Positions 39,310-50,395 of a stretch of DNA of 64,000 nt are shown piece by piece. The stretch is from NCBI GenBank assembly GCA_000701625.1, contig JNJK01000002.1, forward strand, positions 248,001 to 312,000. The letters are read 5' to 3'. Source of the DNA: Lachnospiraceae bacterium MC2017 (GTDB lineage Bacteria > Bacillota > Clostridia > Lachnospirales > Lachnospiraceae). Under the pieces are notes generated by a model. The model was not told where the DNA came from. It saw only the letters and a list, made by a program, of their open reading frames with translations, and ran no database searches. Position 1 is the stretch's first letter, and every line of letters starts with the position of its first letter. Position numbers and translations under genes: made by a program.

Positions 39310-40578
39310 ATGATAATACGAGCGGCACTTGCAAGCAGTGACGGTATTCATGTTGATCGTCACTTTGGAGCAACTGAAGTCTTTGAAATTTACGAAATCG
39401 ATACCATTTCTCATACCTACGAAAAAATAGACCGGCGTACAACCTGCAAGGCCTGCCACGAACATGTACATAATTCTGACAGATTAGAAAAAGCGATCCG
39501 CACGATCGAGGACTGTAATACAGTTTTTGCCGCTGCTGTAGGCTACGGTGCAAGAGCAGAGCTCATTAAGTACGACATCATTCCTGTAGAAACAGAATTA
39601 TCAATATGGCGTATCACCCGAGGTCTCGCATATGGAAGGATGGAACTCCCGTCTCTCTACGAGATAAAGGAAAAAACCCGTAAATCCACTATTACAGGAA
39701 ATGCGCGTAACAATCTGAAAAAACTGCAAAATATCCATCCCTGCATGGGAGGAGATGCACATTTCAAACGAGGCAGGATCCACTTGCCGGTGAGTCCCGA
39801 GTGCAACATCCAATGCAAATTCTGCTCCCGGAGAATGGATAAATCAGTTATACGTCCGGGTGTAACGTCCCTGATACTGACCCCGGAGGAAACACCGGAT
39901 ATTATCAGCAAGGCAAAAACTCTTTGCCCTGAACTCTCAGTAGTAGGAATCGCAGGTCCCGGTGATACGCTGGCATCCACGAAAGCTCTTGAAACTTTTG
40001 CACTTGTAAAAAAGCATCATCCTGAAATGGTATGTTGCCTTTCAACCAATGGTTTCAGGCTCCCTGACAGGATAGAGCGCATAGCTGAAATCGGAGTTGA
40101 AACCATAACCGTAACAGTTAACGCTGTTGATCCGGAGATCGAAGCCAAAATCAATAATTTCGTGATCGATGAAAACGGTGTGAAACATGAAGGAATTGAG
40201 GGTGCCAGGTTACTCATAGAACATCAGCTGCAGGGAATAAAGAGAGCTGCCGAACTCGGGATCGTAGTAAAGATAAATTCCGTACTTATCCCCAGCATCA
40301 ATAATGATCATATTCCTGAGGTTGCCAGAGTCACTTCAGAGCTTGGCGCATCTCTCCTGAATATCATTCCACTGATACCACAAAACGAAATGGCAGACAT
40401 TCCGGCGCCTTCCACTGAACTGATACAGCAAGTAAGAACCGAGGCAGGAAAATATCTGGAAATCTTTATGCACTGCAAACACTGCCGGGCTGACAGCTGC
40501 GGTATTCCCGGGCATGGTCAGGATCTCCACGGAAAACTTTATGACAAAGAAGTTGCTGAAACTTTCAGCCATGGCTGA
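39310..40578 (+). CDS. nifB: NifB-like radical SAM cofactor-assembly protein with N-terminal NifX-like domain
   Basis: 422 residues. The radical SAM core (about 140-400) has the NifB hallmark segment starting HPCMGGDAHF and the cluster-binding CNIQCKFC (C-x3-C-x2-C). Residues about 1-105 resemble the NifX/NafY dinitrogenase-cofactor domain, which in typical NifB sits at the C-terminus, so the domain order is reversed. NifB builds the 8Fe-9S-C core used by nitrogenases. It is first gene of the plus-strand cluster, which strongly suggests a NifB-derived cofactor in the NifDK-like enzyme downstream. Confidence 0.88.
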   Translation: MIIRAALASSDGIHVDRHFGATEVFEIYEIDTISHTYEKIDRRTTCKACHEHVHNSDRLEKAIRTIEDCNTVFAAAVGYGARAELIKYDIIPVETELSIWRITRGLAYGRMELPSLYEIKEKTRKSTITGNARNNLKKLQNIHPCMGGDAHFKRGRIHLPVSPECNIQCKFCSRRMDKSVIRPGVTSLILTPEETPDIISKAKTLCPELSVVGIAGPGDTLASTKALETFALVKKHHPEMVCCLSTNGFRLPDRIERIAEIGVETITVTVNAVDPEIEAKINNFVIDENGVKHEGIEGARLLIEHQLQGIKRAAELGIVVKINSVLIPSINNDHIPEVARVTSELGASLLNIIPLIPQNEMADIPAPSTELIQQVRTEAGKYLEIFMHCKHCRADSCGIPGHGQDLHGKLYDKEVAETFSHG

Positions 40579-40594
40579 AACATAAGGAGGTTAT

Positions 40595-41056
40595 ATGGGA
40601 TTTCCATTTAATGCAGCTATTGCAACAAACAAAGGTGATCGATCAGATGCACATCTCATGAAAGCATCGACCTTTCTGATATTTCAGATAAATGAAGACG
40701 GATCCTATACACTTTTGGGAAACAGGAGACCACCATCTGTAAAAAACAAAAAGAAAGATGATATCACTGCCGAACGAGCAAATAACAGGTTTAGTGAAGC
40801 CTGCCACTGTGCACCTACCGGATACCGCCCAGGTGGCTGCGGTCACTCAGCAGAAACATTCCGACCTCTTACAGAAACTCTGAACGACTGTGCTTATCTG
40901 GTGTGTGCCAATGCAGGTCCCGCTGCCGCTTCAGCTTTCACCAAAGCCGGGATCACCTTTCTCACTGCAGACCTTCCGATAGGCGAGATCATTGAAAAGC
41001 TTTCGATATACGAACGCAGGTTGAATACCTTTAAACGCACATCCGACAGCATTTAG
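40595..41056 (+). CDS. NifX-like cofactor-binding protein
   Basis: 153 residues with TAAGGAGG upstream. The pattern resembles the NifB/NifX dinitrogenase iron-molybdenum cofactor family: AIATNKGDRSDAHLMKASTFLIF at the start and LVCANAGPAAASAFTKAGITFLTADLPIGEIIEKL at the end. The middle holds a Cys/His-rich stretch (CHCAPTGYRPGGCGH) that could bind a cluster. It probably carries or protects the cofactor precursor between NifB and the DK-like enzyme. Confidence 0.75.
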   Translation: MGFPFNAAIATNKGDRSDAHLMKASTFLIFQINEDGSYTLLGNRRPPSVKNKKKDDITAERANNRFSEACHCAPTGYRPGGCGHSAETFRPLTETLNDCAYLVCANAGPAAASAFTKAGITFLTADLPIGEIIEKLSIYERRLNTFKRTSDSI

Positions 41057-41094
41057 TCAGATTTATACCAACATTTACAGAGGAGAAAACATAT

Positions 41095-48711: not shown

Positions 48712-48736
48712 TGATCTGAAAAAACAGGAGAAAAAA

Positions 48737-49576
48737 ATGCGACAAATTGCAATCTATGGAAAGGGTGGAATCGGAAAATCCACCACGACTCAAAACCTTA
48801 CAGCAGGACTTGTAGAACACGGAAAAAAGGTGATGGTCGTCGGATGTGATCCAAAGGCAGATTCCACACGGCTCTTACTTGGTGGTCTTGCGCAGAAAAC
48901 GGTTCTTGATACGCTTCGTGAAGAGGGTGAAGACGTATCCCTTGATCACATCGTAAAAGAAGGCTTCGGCGGAACAAGATGTGTCGAATCAGGCGGTCCT
49001 GAACCCGGCGTAGGCTGCGCCGGACGAGGCATCATCACTTCTATCAATATGCTGGAAAATCAGGGAGCATACACTGATGATCTCGACTTCGTTTTTTATG
49101 ATGTCCTCGGAGACGTAGTGTGCGGTGGTTTTGCAATGCCGATACGAGAAGGAAAAGCGCAGGAAATCTACATCGTAGCATCAGGAGAAATGATGGCGCT
49201 CTACGCTGCAAACAACATTTCAAAAGGCATAAAGAAGTATGCCCGAAGCGGCGGCGTACGACTCGGCGGGATCATCTGCAACAGCAGAAACGTTGATCGT
49301 GAGATCCCACTTTTACGCGCTTTTGCAAAGGAACTGAATACTCAGCTTCTGTACTTTGTGCCAAGAGACAATATAGTGCAGCACGCAGAAATAAATAAAC
49401 AGACTGTGATCCAGTATAAACCGACCTCTGCTCAGGCACAGGAATACAGAAATCTGGCAGAAGCCATCATAAACAACACTTCTCTGACAGTCCCGACTCC
49501 AATGACTCAGGAACGGTTGGAGGAAATCCTTCAGGAATTCGGTTTGATGGAATCTGCAAACGAATATCAGATCTAA
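48737..49576 (+). CDS. Nitrogenase reductase-like iron protein (NifH-like)
   Basis: 279 residues from the ATG at 48737, with AGGAG; the frame extends upstream but into the K-like gene. Highly NifH-like: P-loop [10 protein letters not shown], switch [11 protein letters not shown], cluster cysteines in GVGCAGRG and [10 protein letters not shown], and the Arg of GCAGRG that is ADP-ribosylated in some bacteria. The homodimer holds one [4Fe-4S] cluster and couples ATP hydrolysis to electron delivery to the DK-like enzyme. Confidence 0.93.
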
Positions 49577-49585
49577 GGAGACTCT

Positions 49586-50395
49586 ATGAGCAATCAGATA
49601 GAAACAAAGTTTGGTCTTTTAGAACCAAGTCACACAATGGATGGCAGAAAAAGAGACCGCAAGGCTGTAGAATACTATGAATCCGGCACCCTTAAAAATA
49701 TCTATCTTGAAAATGCTATAGAAATCGACACCCCGGTCGGAGCCGTAAGTGCAGAATTTCTGACCTTCTATGAAGGAGGAAATCTGCACCGTGTCTTTCC
49801 GCTTTTCGGAAAGATCACCGGTTACTGGACGGAGGACGACGAATATAGTCTGGCGCAGGAAGTTGATATCGTACTTCCAACCGGAAGTACTGTGACCTGC
49901 AAACCTCTATGCCTCTGTTTCTATCCGTCCGGCTCATTAAAAAGTCTCACCATATGGCAGAGAAGTCCCCTAAAGATCGATACTCCTATAGGGCCTATTA
50001 CCACTATTCTCGGTGCTTCATTTTATGAGAGCGGCGAGCTGGAGTCCATAGAACCGCTTATAGGCACAAAGATTCAGACGTCTATCGGCTCAGCCACGCT
50101 CTATGACCCTGACTCATTTCCCTTAAACGCTGATAATAATTCTCTGAAATTTGATAAATCAGGAAATCTGATCGAATTATCAACTATCCATGATCATCTT
50201 TTGATACTTAAACAGGACAAGATCGTTGATGTCATCAATCCTCCGGAAACTACTTCCATGTTCTTTGAACCGGTTAAAGTCCTCCATCCACTGAGAATAA
50301 GATTCTGCCCAAACGAAATCTCTCTTTCAACAGGTTCCGGAGAAAGAAAATATTCTTTAAGAGAATTTACTGTAAAGCTTCAGCGCTTCACATAA
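49586..50395 (+). CDS. MORN-like repeat protein at the end of the nitrogenase-like cluster
   Basis: 269 residues with AAGGAG, 9 bases after the nifH-like gene. Not recognised as a named protein. At least five degenerate beta-hairpin repeats of the form FY-E/P-SG-x-LKS (YYESG at 30, FYEGG at 61, FYPSG at 112, FYESG at 146, FDKSG at 189) resemble the MORN-repeat-variant fold, interleaved with DTPIG-type segments. No signal or membrane span. Being the last gene of the cluster it may be a scaffold or accessory protein for the enzyme; this is inferred from position only. Confidence 0.7.
   Translation: MSNQIETKFGLLEPSHTMDGRKRDRKAVEYYESGTLKNIYLENAIEIDTPVGAVSAEFLTFYEGGNLHRVFPLFGKITGYWTEDDEYSLAQEVDIVLPTGSTVTCKPLCLCFYPSGSLKSLTIWQRSPLKIDTPIGPITTILGASFYESGELESIEPLIGTKIQTSIGSATLYDPDSFPLNADNNSLKFDKSGNLIELSTIHDHLLILKQDKIVDVINPPETTSMFFEPVKVLHPLRIRFCPNEISLSTGSGERKYSLREFTVKLQRFT

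Follow-up and report, generated by a model that had tools for sequence, protein, structure and literature searches.

A lone nitrogenase-like DK pair encoded with a sulfonate-type importer in Lachnospiraceae bacterium MC2017, a candidate reductase of organic sulfur compounds

What does a nitrogenase-like enzyme reduce when it is encoded with its own importer and without NifEN? The question is raised by a gene cluster at positions 39310–50395 of a 64,000-nucleotide stretch of DNA from Lachnospiraceae bacterium MC2017 (the whole stretch is called the window here), in which the D and K subunits of a nitrogenase-like catalytic component (DK) and an iron protein (H) are encoded together with a NifB-like protein, an SsuABC-type importer, a dehydrogenase and an aminotransferase. 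Because relatives of the D subunit often lie among sulfur-scavenging genes, the enzyme, judged from sequence, is more likely to remove sulfur from organic compounds than to fix nitrogen. The open reading frame (ORF) listing and domain scans gave eleven plus-strand genes with gaps of no more than 38 bases; a preliminary description of this DNA had counted ten, and the genes that it named were all recovered at their coordinates. The genes are:

39310–40578, plus strand: NifB-like radical SAM protein with an N-terminal NifX-type domain (TIGR01290, Radical_SAM, Nitro_FeMo-Co)
40595–41056, plus strand: NifX-like cluster carrier (PF02579, 1.5e-10)
41095–42159, plus strand: SsuA-type substrate-binding lipoprotein (SsuA_fam; solved relatives)
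42175–42966, plus strand: SsuC-like importer permease (PRK11365 SsuC, best of 7 families)
42976–43719, plus strand: SsuB-like importer ATPase (PRK11247, best of 187 families)
43709–44836, plus strand: GldA-like metal-dependent dehydrogenase, Fe-ADH (glycerol dehydrogenase PRK09423)
44833–45936, plus strand: HisC-like aminotransferase (hisC model over cut-off)
45951–47426, plus strand: D subunit of the catalytic component, of a subfamily that we name D1 (PF00148, tree, ligands, model)
47440–48711, plus strand: K subunit (PF00148, three P-cluster Cys, tree)
48737–49576, plus strand: NifH-type iron protein (TIGR01287; tree placement)
49586–50395, plus strand: MORN-like beta protein (MORN_2)

Neighbouring genes overlap by up to 11 bases or lie up to 38 bases apart, and transcription as a single operon is therefore likely. 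The H ORF as listed shares 56 bases with the end of K; the conserved start at 48737 leaves 25 bases between the two genes.

To place the catalytic subunits, we built a D tree (2 rows dropped) and, by a quick method, a K tree (6 rows dropped; duplicates and fragments). In the D tree, window D and its orthologues of about 70–73% identity form, with support of 100/100, the D1 clade, whose sister group (93/76, unstarred) comprises MarD (from methylthio-alkane reductase, Mar), a Chlorohelix type and a clostridial "D2"; D1 stands apart from the few reference rows of NifD, NifE, VnfD and VnfE. The K subunit likewise forms its own clade (support 100), outside both NifK/NifN and the Mar clade. All 79 of 79 D1 rows have C55, C80, C148, C265 and H429, and K retains three P-cluster Cys, giving six in total across D and K. 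Cys265 of D is the counterpart of Mar Cys270 and Nif Cys275, and His429 in loop II matches NifD His442 by sequence register only: in VnfD, a true nitrogenase subunit, the nearby His stands at –9 instead of –10, and a His at –10 occurs in one NifE-like row, so this register neither holds throughout nor belongs to NifD alone. At the position of the Mar loop I Arg428-His429, window D reads FIGVPE, with no Arg or His, and the loop is FIG(V/I/M)(P/A) in 79/79 D1 rows. The Mar pocket residues His194, Trp195 and His375 are not kept in D1, and the columns of Nif Gln191/His195 hold Cys185/Phe in window D. When a predicted model of D was compared with solved structures, Mar was the closest relative. We rejected membership of Mar, since D1 lies outside the MarDK clade and lacks the Arg428-His429 loop. 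Separately, neighbouring clusters of one genome (G381; L160, L161, L162) hold several distinct nitrogenase-like DK subfamilies.

We then scanned the organism's own genome (4.26 Mb, 56 contigs, 99.98% complete). Genome-wide, PF00148 matches only window D and K, with a further pair inside an assembly gap remaining possible; NifE and NifN (or VnfEN), which the preliminary description had reported absent, were thus not found by PF00148 anywhere in the genome. No NifV (homocitrate synthase) scored over its cut-off genome-wide (best 59 bits, cut-off 462.9), and no nif regulators were present among 22 scanned window genes, no genome-wide regulator search having been made. Based on the D and K tree positions and on finding neither NifEN nor NifV, we rejected a canonical nitrogenase. 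Within the genus, a D match at E 1e-30 or better is present in 8 of 48 genomes, this one included. When we scanned 20 other D1-carrying genomes, picked from the named loci, each had 4 to 37 PF00148 matches, and therefore at least two pairs, which makes the window genome an unusually bare case. AsrA, AsrB and AsrC are all over cut-off in the window organism's genome, as is one CysK elsewhere in it, so sulfite could be used. On contig C5 of this genome (L113, 1810–8504), a small sulfite-reductase-domain protein lies beside ThiF/MoeB-like, JAMM-like, cysteine desulfurase-like and MnmA-like genes, which could make up a sulfur-carrier route to cysteine (read partly by eye).

To see what accompanies D1 in other organisms, we analysed the best 80 loci of 185 relatives in a named-genome scan, among 333 stretches; many of the 80 end early at contig ends, and we therefore also used a well-flanked subset (n = 35, at least 8 kb on each side). 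Neighbours were labelled by one representative per similarity cluster; the representatives for CysK, PatB and NifS exceed their cut-offs, and the CymR, cystine permease, SsuA-type and metB-like labels are best matches below theirs. The D1 loci, with a D about 72% identical to that of the window, come from Clostridia, Negativicutes and Treponema. Genes of the cysteine synthase or C–S lyase type are present at 39 of the 80 loci (cysK at 33, patB at 15, metB-like at 13), and when a cystine-type ATP-binding cassette (ABC) importer, CymR-like Rrf2 or nifS is added, sulfur-linked genes are found at 56/80. Other neighbours are cystine-type ABC parts (25–26), Rrf2 (20), LysR (20) and an SsuA-type binding protein (16), and a second, Mar-like DK (D2 or K2) is present at 45/80. 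In the well-flanked loci, 26/35 have cysK, metB or patB, 31/35 have any sulfur-linked gene and 28/35 have D2 or K2. As a scale for these raw counts, which have no random-locus control, the window organism has its one CysK over cut-off in 4.26 Mb. A 34% identical D, carried on a Chlorohelix plasmid within a B-X-H-D-K cluster, has an O-acetylhomoserine sulfhydrylase gene a few kb away. Sulfur is the strongest signal in the relatives and had been missed by the preliminary description; the association itself has been known since Dos Santos 2012, where cysteine synthase and ABC transporters are described as adjoining such genes (PMC3464626).

The genes of the window's own module are much rarer at these loci: Fe-ADH is present at 6/80 (and at 6/35 of the well-flanked loci), the aminotransferase at 4/80 and a binding protein more than 30% identical to that of the window at 3/80. 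Importer, dehydrogenase and aminotransferase are therefore no regular companions of this D/K family. Such scarcity among the homologues is close to what the preliminary description had named as refuting its view, though the set does recur in separate genera. What stands of the proposed uptake, reduction and conversion pathway is a non-canonical reductase without NifEN, with its own importer and probably an organic substrate; the set as a rule of the family does not.

In contrast to D and K, H falls with nitrogenase. Window H scores 462.2 bits against TIGR01287 (cut-off 394.35) and shares the side of a 100/100 split with S. meliloti NifH and the NifH of nif clusters; its placement within this group is unresolved. 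The nif-cluster NifH from five D1-carrying genomes is 72–78% identical to window H. A second H lineage, about 51% identical to window H, occurs at other nitrogenase-like loci, including D1 loci of C. aminobutyricum and of Anaerocolumna, the latter with a nif cluster in its genome as well. The NCBIfam nifH cut-off is exceeded in both lineages, so that label cannot separate them. The proposed DK/H phylogeny therefore gave a split answer, with D and K outside true Nif and no nifEN, and H branching with true NifH; by genomic association, a NifH of nitrogenase lineage appears to be coupled to this DK. The H that adjoins a MarD-like gene in L166 also falls on the NifH side. At a Clostridium aminobutyricum locus (L196), we observed two MarD-like genes and one MarK-like gene (69–74% identical to R. 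rubrum Mar) with an H that is 50% identical to window H.

The importer points to sulfonates by its best matches, each of which is below its cut-off: SsuA_fam for the binding protein (125.6 bits, cut-off 163.5), PRK11365 SsuC for the permease (227.8, cut-off 347) and PRK11247 for the ATPase (293.6, cut-off 395). The three solved relatives of the binding protein are 3e4r (labelled a nitrate transport protein) and the SsuA-type 2x26 and 3uif, and relatives of 36–41% identity adjoin LLM flavin oxidoreductases in each of three plasmids inspected out of 56 matching records. The Fe-ADH scores 257.7 bits against glycerol dehydrogenase PRK09423 (below the cut-off of 336) and retains the Asp/His/His columns, which we take to be the metal ligands; TDAPCSA of GldA is replaced by TCAAWAA. 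The motif PTIAATCA is found in 7/7 linked Fe-ADH copies aligned, which belong to the GldA-like group, and in five further copies inspected, four of them unlinked. The best Fe-ADH match outside the own genome adjoins D2K2, and in a phylum sample a match at E 1e-45 or better is present in 60/398 genomes. A Zymomonas plasmid match beside a D-cysteine desulfhydrase shares no more than 34.5% identity and was left out of the argument. The aminotransferase is over the hisC cut-off (327.1 bits, cut-off 276.55), and shares 30% identity with the genome's other HisC (also over cut-off) and 51–53% with linked aminotransferases. Fe-ADH and aminotransferase genes flank or join nitrogenase-like loci in L017, L027, L029, L069, L070 and L188, and Fe-ADH is also present at L073 and L079, which are shortened by contig ends. 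As the same partners occur in other genomes, we rejected a chance assembly of the cluster.

From these observations we infer a cluster type, a C–S cleavage, a substrate class and an order and direction for two conversion steps. An SsuABC-type importer would take up an organosulfur compound, for which a sulfonate is the likeliest candidate. Amine may then be converted to carbonyl and on to alcohol by the HisC-like aminotransferase and the GldA-like Fe-ADH, yielding a hydroxy-sulfonate from an amino-sulfonate. NifH with ATP would deliver electrons to a DK tetramer, predicted to hold a P-cluster and a NifB-made [Fe8S9C]-type cluster, and DK would reductively cleave the C–S bond; the sulfite set free could be reduced to sulfide by AsrABC and trapped by cysteine synthase. 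We give even chances to the core of this reading, import of a sulfonate-type organosulfur compound and its C–S cleavage by DKH. The feeding step from amine to alcohol is a more tentative part of it, and C–S chemistry on some organosulfur compound, whether of sulfonate or thioether type, is probable. A literature search on cysteinolate found no papers.

Several observations weigh against this reading. In the window cluster the importer is the sole sulfur-type gene, so that the case for sulfur rests on the relatives, and four of the 35 well-flanked loci (L027, L037, L061, L099) lack sulfur-linked genes; L027 has the importer, Fe-ADH and aminotransferase set with no sulfur gene in view. The NifB-like protein scores 303.4 bits against TIGR01290, below the cut-off of 343.65. 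An Rfam search found no riboswitch or T-box, giving a single tRNA in the window and no match of any kind in eight loci. The aminotransferase is HisC-like, whereas taurine aminotransferases are class III. The full nitrogenase ligand set in D and the NifH-type H both fit N2 reduction, and the importer, Fe-ADH and aminotransferase may do something else, or run from alcohol to amine. Within the stretches read, which for L186 span 16 kb, no nitrogenase-like gene accompanies the same five genes in L186 (6990–11982) or the importer, aminotransferase and Fe-ADH in L184 (3391–8442) and L187 (3948–8889). Because the set occurs both with and without nitrogenase-like genes, the module is portable, and its link to the reductase is real and not obligatory. 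The five-gene set of L186 is followed, as read by eye, by another importer and a ThiM-like gene.

These last loci, with the presence of the Fe-ADH motif PTIAATCAAW in unlinked copies also, favour a separate salvage module, from hydroxy or keto acid to amino acid, that only shares the operon, an explanation compatible with either C–S reading. The window module sits inside the operon between X and D, however, and is linked to nitrogenase-like loci in the six cases named above, and we consider it somewhat unlikely that the module is separate. An alternative within C–S chemistry is a Mar-like reductase that acts on a thioether derived from an amino acid, such as methionine by way of its keto and hydroxy acids, and sets free methanethiol or sulfide. 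Mar is the closest solved relative, and D1 loci often include CysK, metB-like genes and cystine-type importers; as the proposed Arg428-His429 hallmark of Mar and its three pocket residues are missing in D1 and the linked importer is of the sulfonate type, this is unlikely.

A NifEN-less nitrogenase, with N2 reduction as the main role of D1K1H and the importer and enzymes as chance neighbours, would account for the six P-cluster Cys, Cys265 and the His in the NifD His442 register, as well as for an H that groups with true NifH. Precedents are described: Endomicrobium proavitum is reported to take up 15N2 although its only DK pair is of Group IV and NifEN is lacking (PMC9147875, PMC8399215), and FeMo-co to be made without NifEN in Roseiflexus (PMC11573651). 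We nevertheless judge it quite improbable, given that no NifV is over cut-off genome-wide, D and K lie outside the Nif rows, Cys185/Phe stand at the Nif Gln191/His195 columns and many relatives lie among sulfur genes. Also against it, nifD is reported not to be restored by five P. sabinae nifD-like genes, whose kinship to D1 was not compared (PMC4246453), and the D-subunit His of E. proavitum is disputed, being absent according to one account (PMC4995403) and among a full set of ligands according to another (PMC9147875). Finally, D1K1 could be a NifEN-like scaffold that matures the cofactor of an adjacent Mar-like D2K2. Such a D2 or K2 is present at 45/80 D1 loci, at least two pairs are present in each of the 20 other D1 genomes and tandem pairs have been proposed as scaffolds (PMC3464626), but Mar is described as functioning without NifEN (PMC12552129) and D1K1 is the sole pair found in the window genome, which led us to reject a scaffold-only role; the explanation as a whole is very improbable.

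If sulfonate-type import and C–S cleavage by DKH are correct, the nitrogenase superfamily would gain a new substrate class, and a nitrogenase-type ligand set with a true NifH would not by itself prove N2 fixation. Cluster III nifH of gut and rumen Lachnospira and Butyrivibrio has been proposed as a marker of diazotrophs, with the argument that the NifD-like proteins keep the Cys and that some of gut Clostridiales keep the His too (PMC4995403); those with both His and Cys may be D1. Some gut "Cluster III nifH" records could then be sulfur genes and part of inferred gut nitrogen fixation could be sulfur scavenging, which would also bear on how anaerobes of the gut draw sulfur from sulfonates by a route that needs no glycyl radical enzyme. 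Four Butyrivibrio D1 genomes (G448, G455, G456, G462) have 4 to 6 PF00148 matches with none above 273.4 bits, and the NifD, NifK, NifE and NifN genes score about 340 or higher in genomes that have a full nif cluster.

The remaining genes of the cluster and its surroundings are as follows. TIGR01290 is the best-scoring family for the NifB-like protein, in which a NifX domain precedes the radical SAM domain within one fused protein; among the listed relatives, B (about 288–337 aa) and a NifX-like protein of about 120 aa are separate, adjoining genes. The MORN-like protein scores 29.1 bits against MORN_2, slightly below the cut-off of 29.6, has a predicted model with a pLDDT of 69.9 and has linked homologues in L023 (41% identity) and L029 (35% identity). 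A promoter scan was at chance level (22 found, 21.9 expected), and a search with PF01507 gave a match at L173. Downstream are an orphan 297 aa ORF with a Cys-rich stretch and no Pfam or NCBIfam match (51120–52013) and the [FeFe] hydrogenase maturase HydE (52005–53087, 582.5 bits), which adjoins the cluster. Divergent from the cluster on the minus strand (33772–39035) are formate dehydrogenase alpha (851.9 bits), an FdhD-like protein and a GltD-like flavoprotein.

In the open literature searched, we found no paper that describes this DK subfamily alongside an iron protein of NifH lineage or alongside the SsuABC, Fe-ADH and aminotransferase set. Reductase precedents are reported for thioethers with Mar (PMC12552129) and for isethionate with isethionate reductase, Isr (PMC11423573). 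It is possible, though doubtful, that the cluster represents a third kind of nitrogenase-like C–S reductase beside these, with a full ligand set and a true NifH, fed with an amino-sulfonate by a dedicated SsuABC importer, aminotransferase and Fe-ADH, and that its NifH is the Cluster III nifH of the gut surveys. Like MarBHDK of Rhodospirillum rubrum, the window system has P-cluster Cys in D and K, an equivalent of Cys270, a NifB-like partner and no NifEN; unlike it, window D belongs to a separate clade, lacks the Arg428-His429 loop, has Cys185 at Trp195 and carries a loop II His, and the operon includes SsuABC, Fe-ADH and an aminotransferase. IsrBHDK with SsuCAB of Rhodobacter capsulatus, as published, resembles it in joining a nitrogenase-like HDK to an Ssu-type importer for a sulfonate (PMC11423573). 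An importer linked to a close kind of enzyme was thus already on record, contrary in this part to the preliminary view that known family members outside N2 fixation lack the set of importer, dehydrogenase and aminotransferase. By the same description, IsrD has one P-cluster Cys and neither Cys275 nor His442, all of which window D keeps, and IsrB is not NifB-like, whereas window B is; we rejected membership of Isr on these grounds. Group IV-A NfaHDK of Endomicrobium proavitum is similar, by published description, in being a lone DK without NifEN. The closest parallel to the proposed feeding steps is the taurine route of Bilophila wadsworthia, reported to run through taurine aminotransferase, sulfoacetaldehyde reductase and isethionate sulfite-lyase (PMC6386719), in which an amine likewise becomes a carbonyl and then an alcohol before the C–S bond is cleaved; Bilophila cleaves it with a glycyl radical enzyme, whereas the window system would use a HisC-like aminotransferase and leave the cleavage to DKH.

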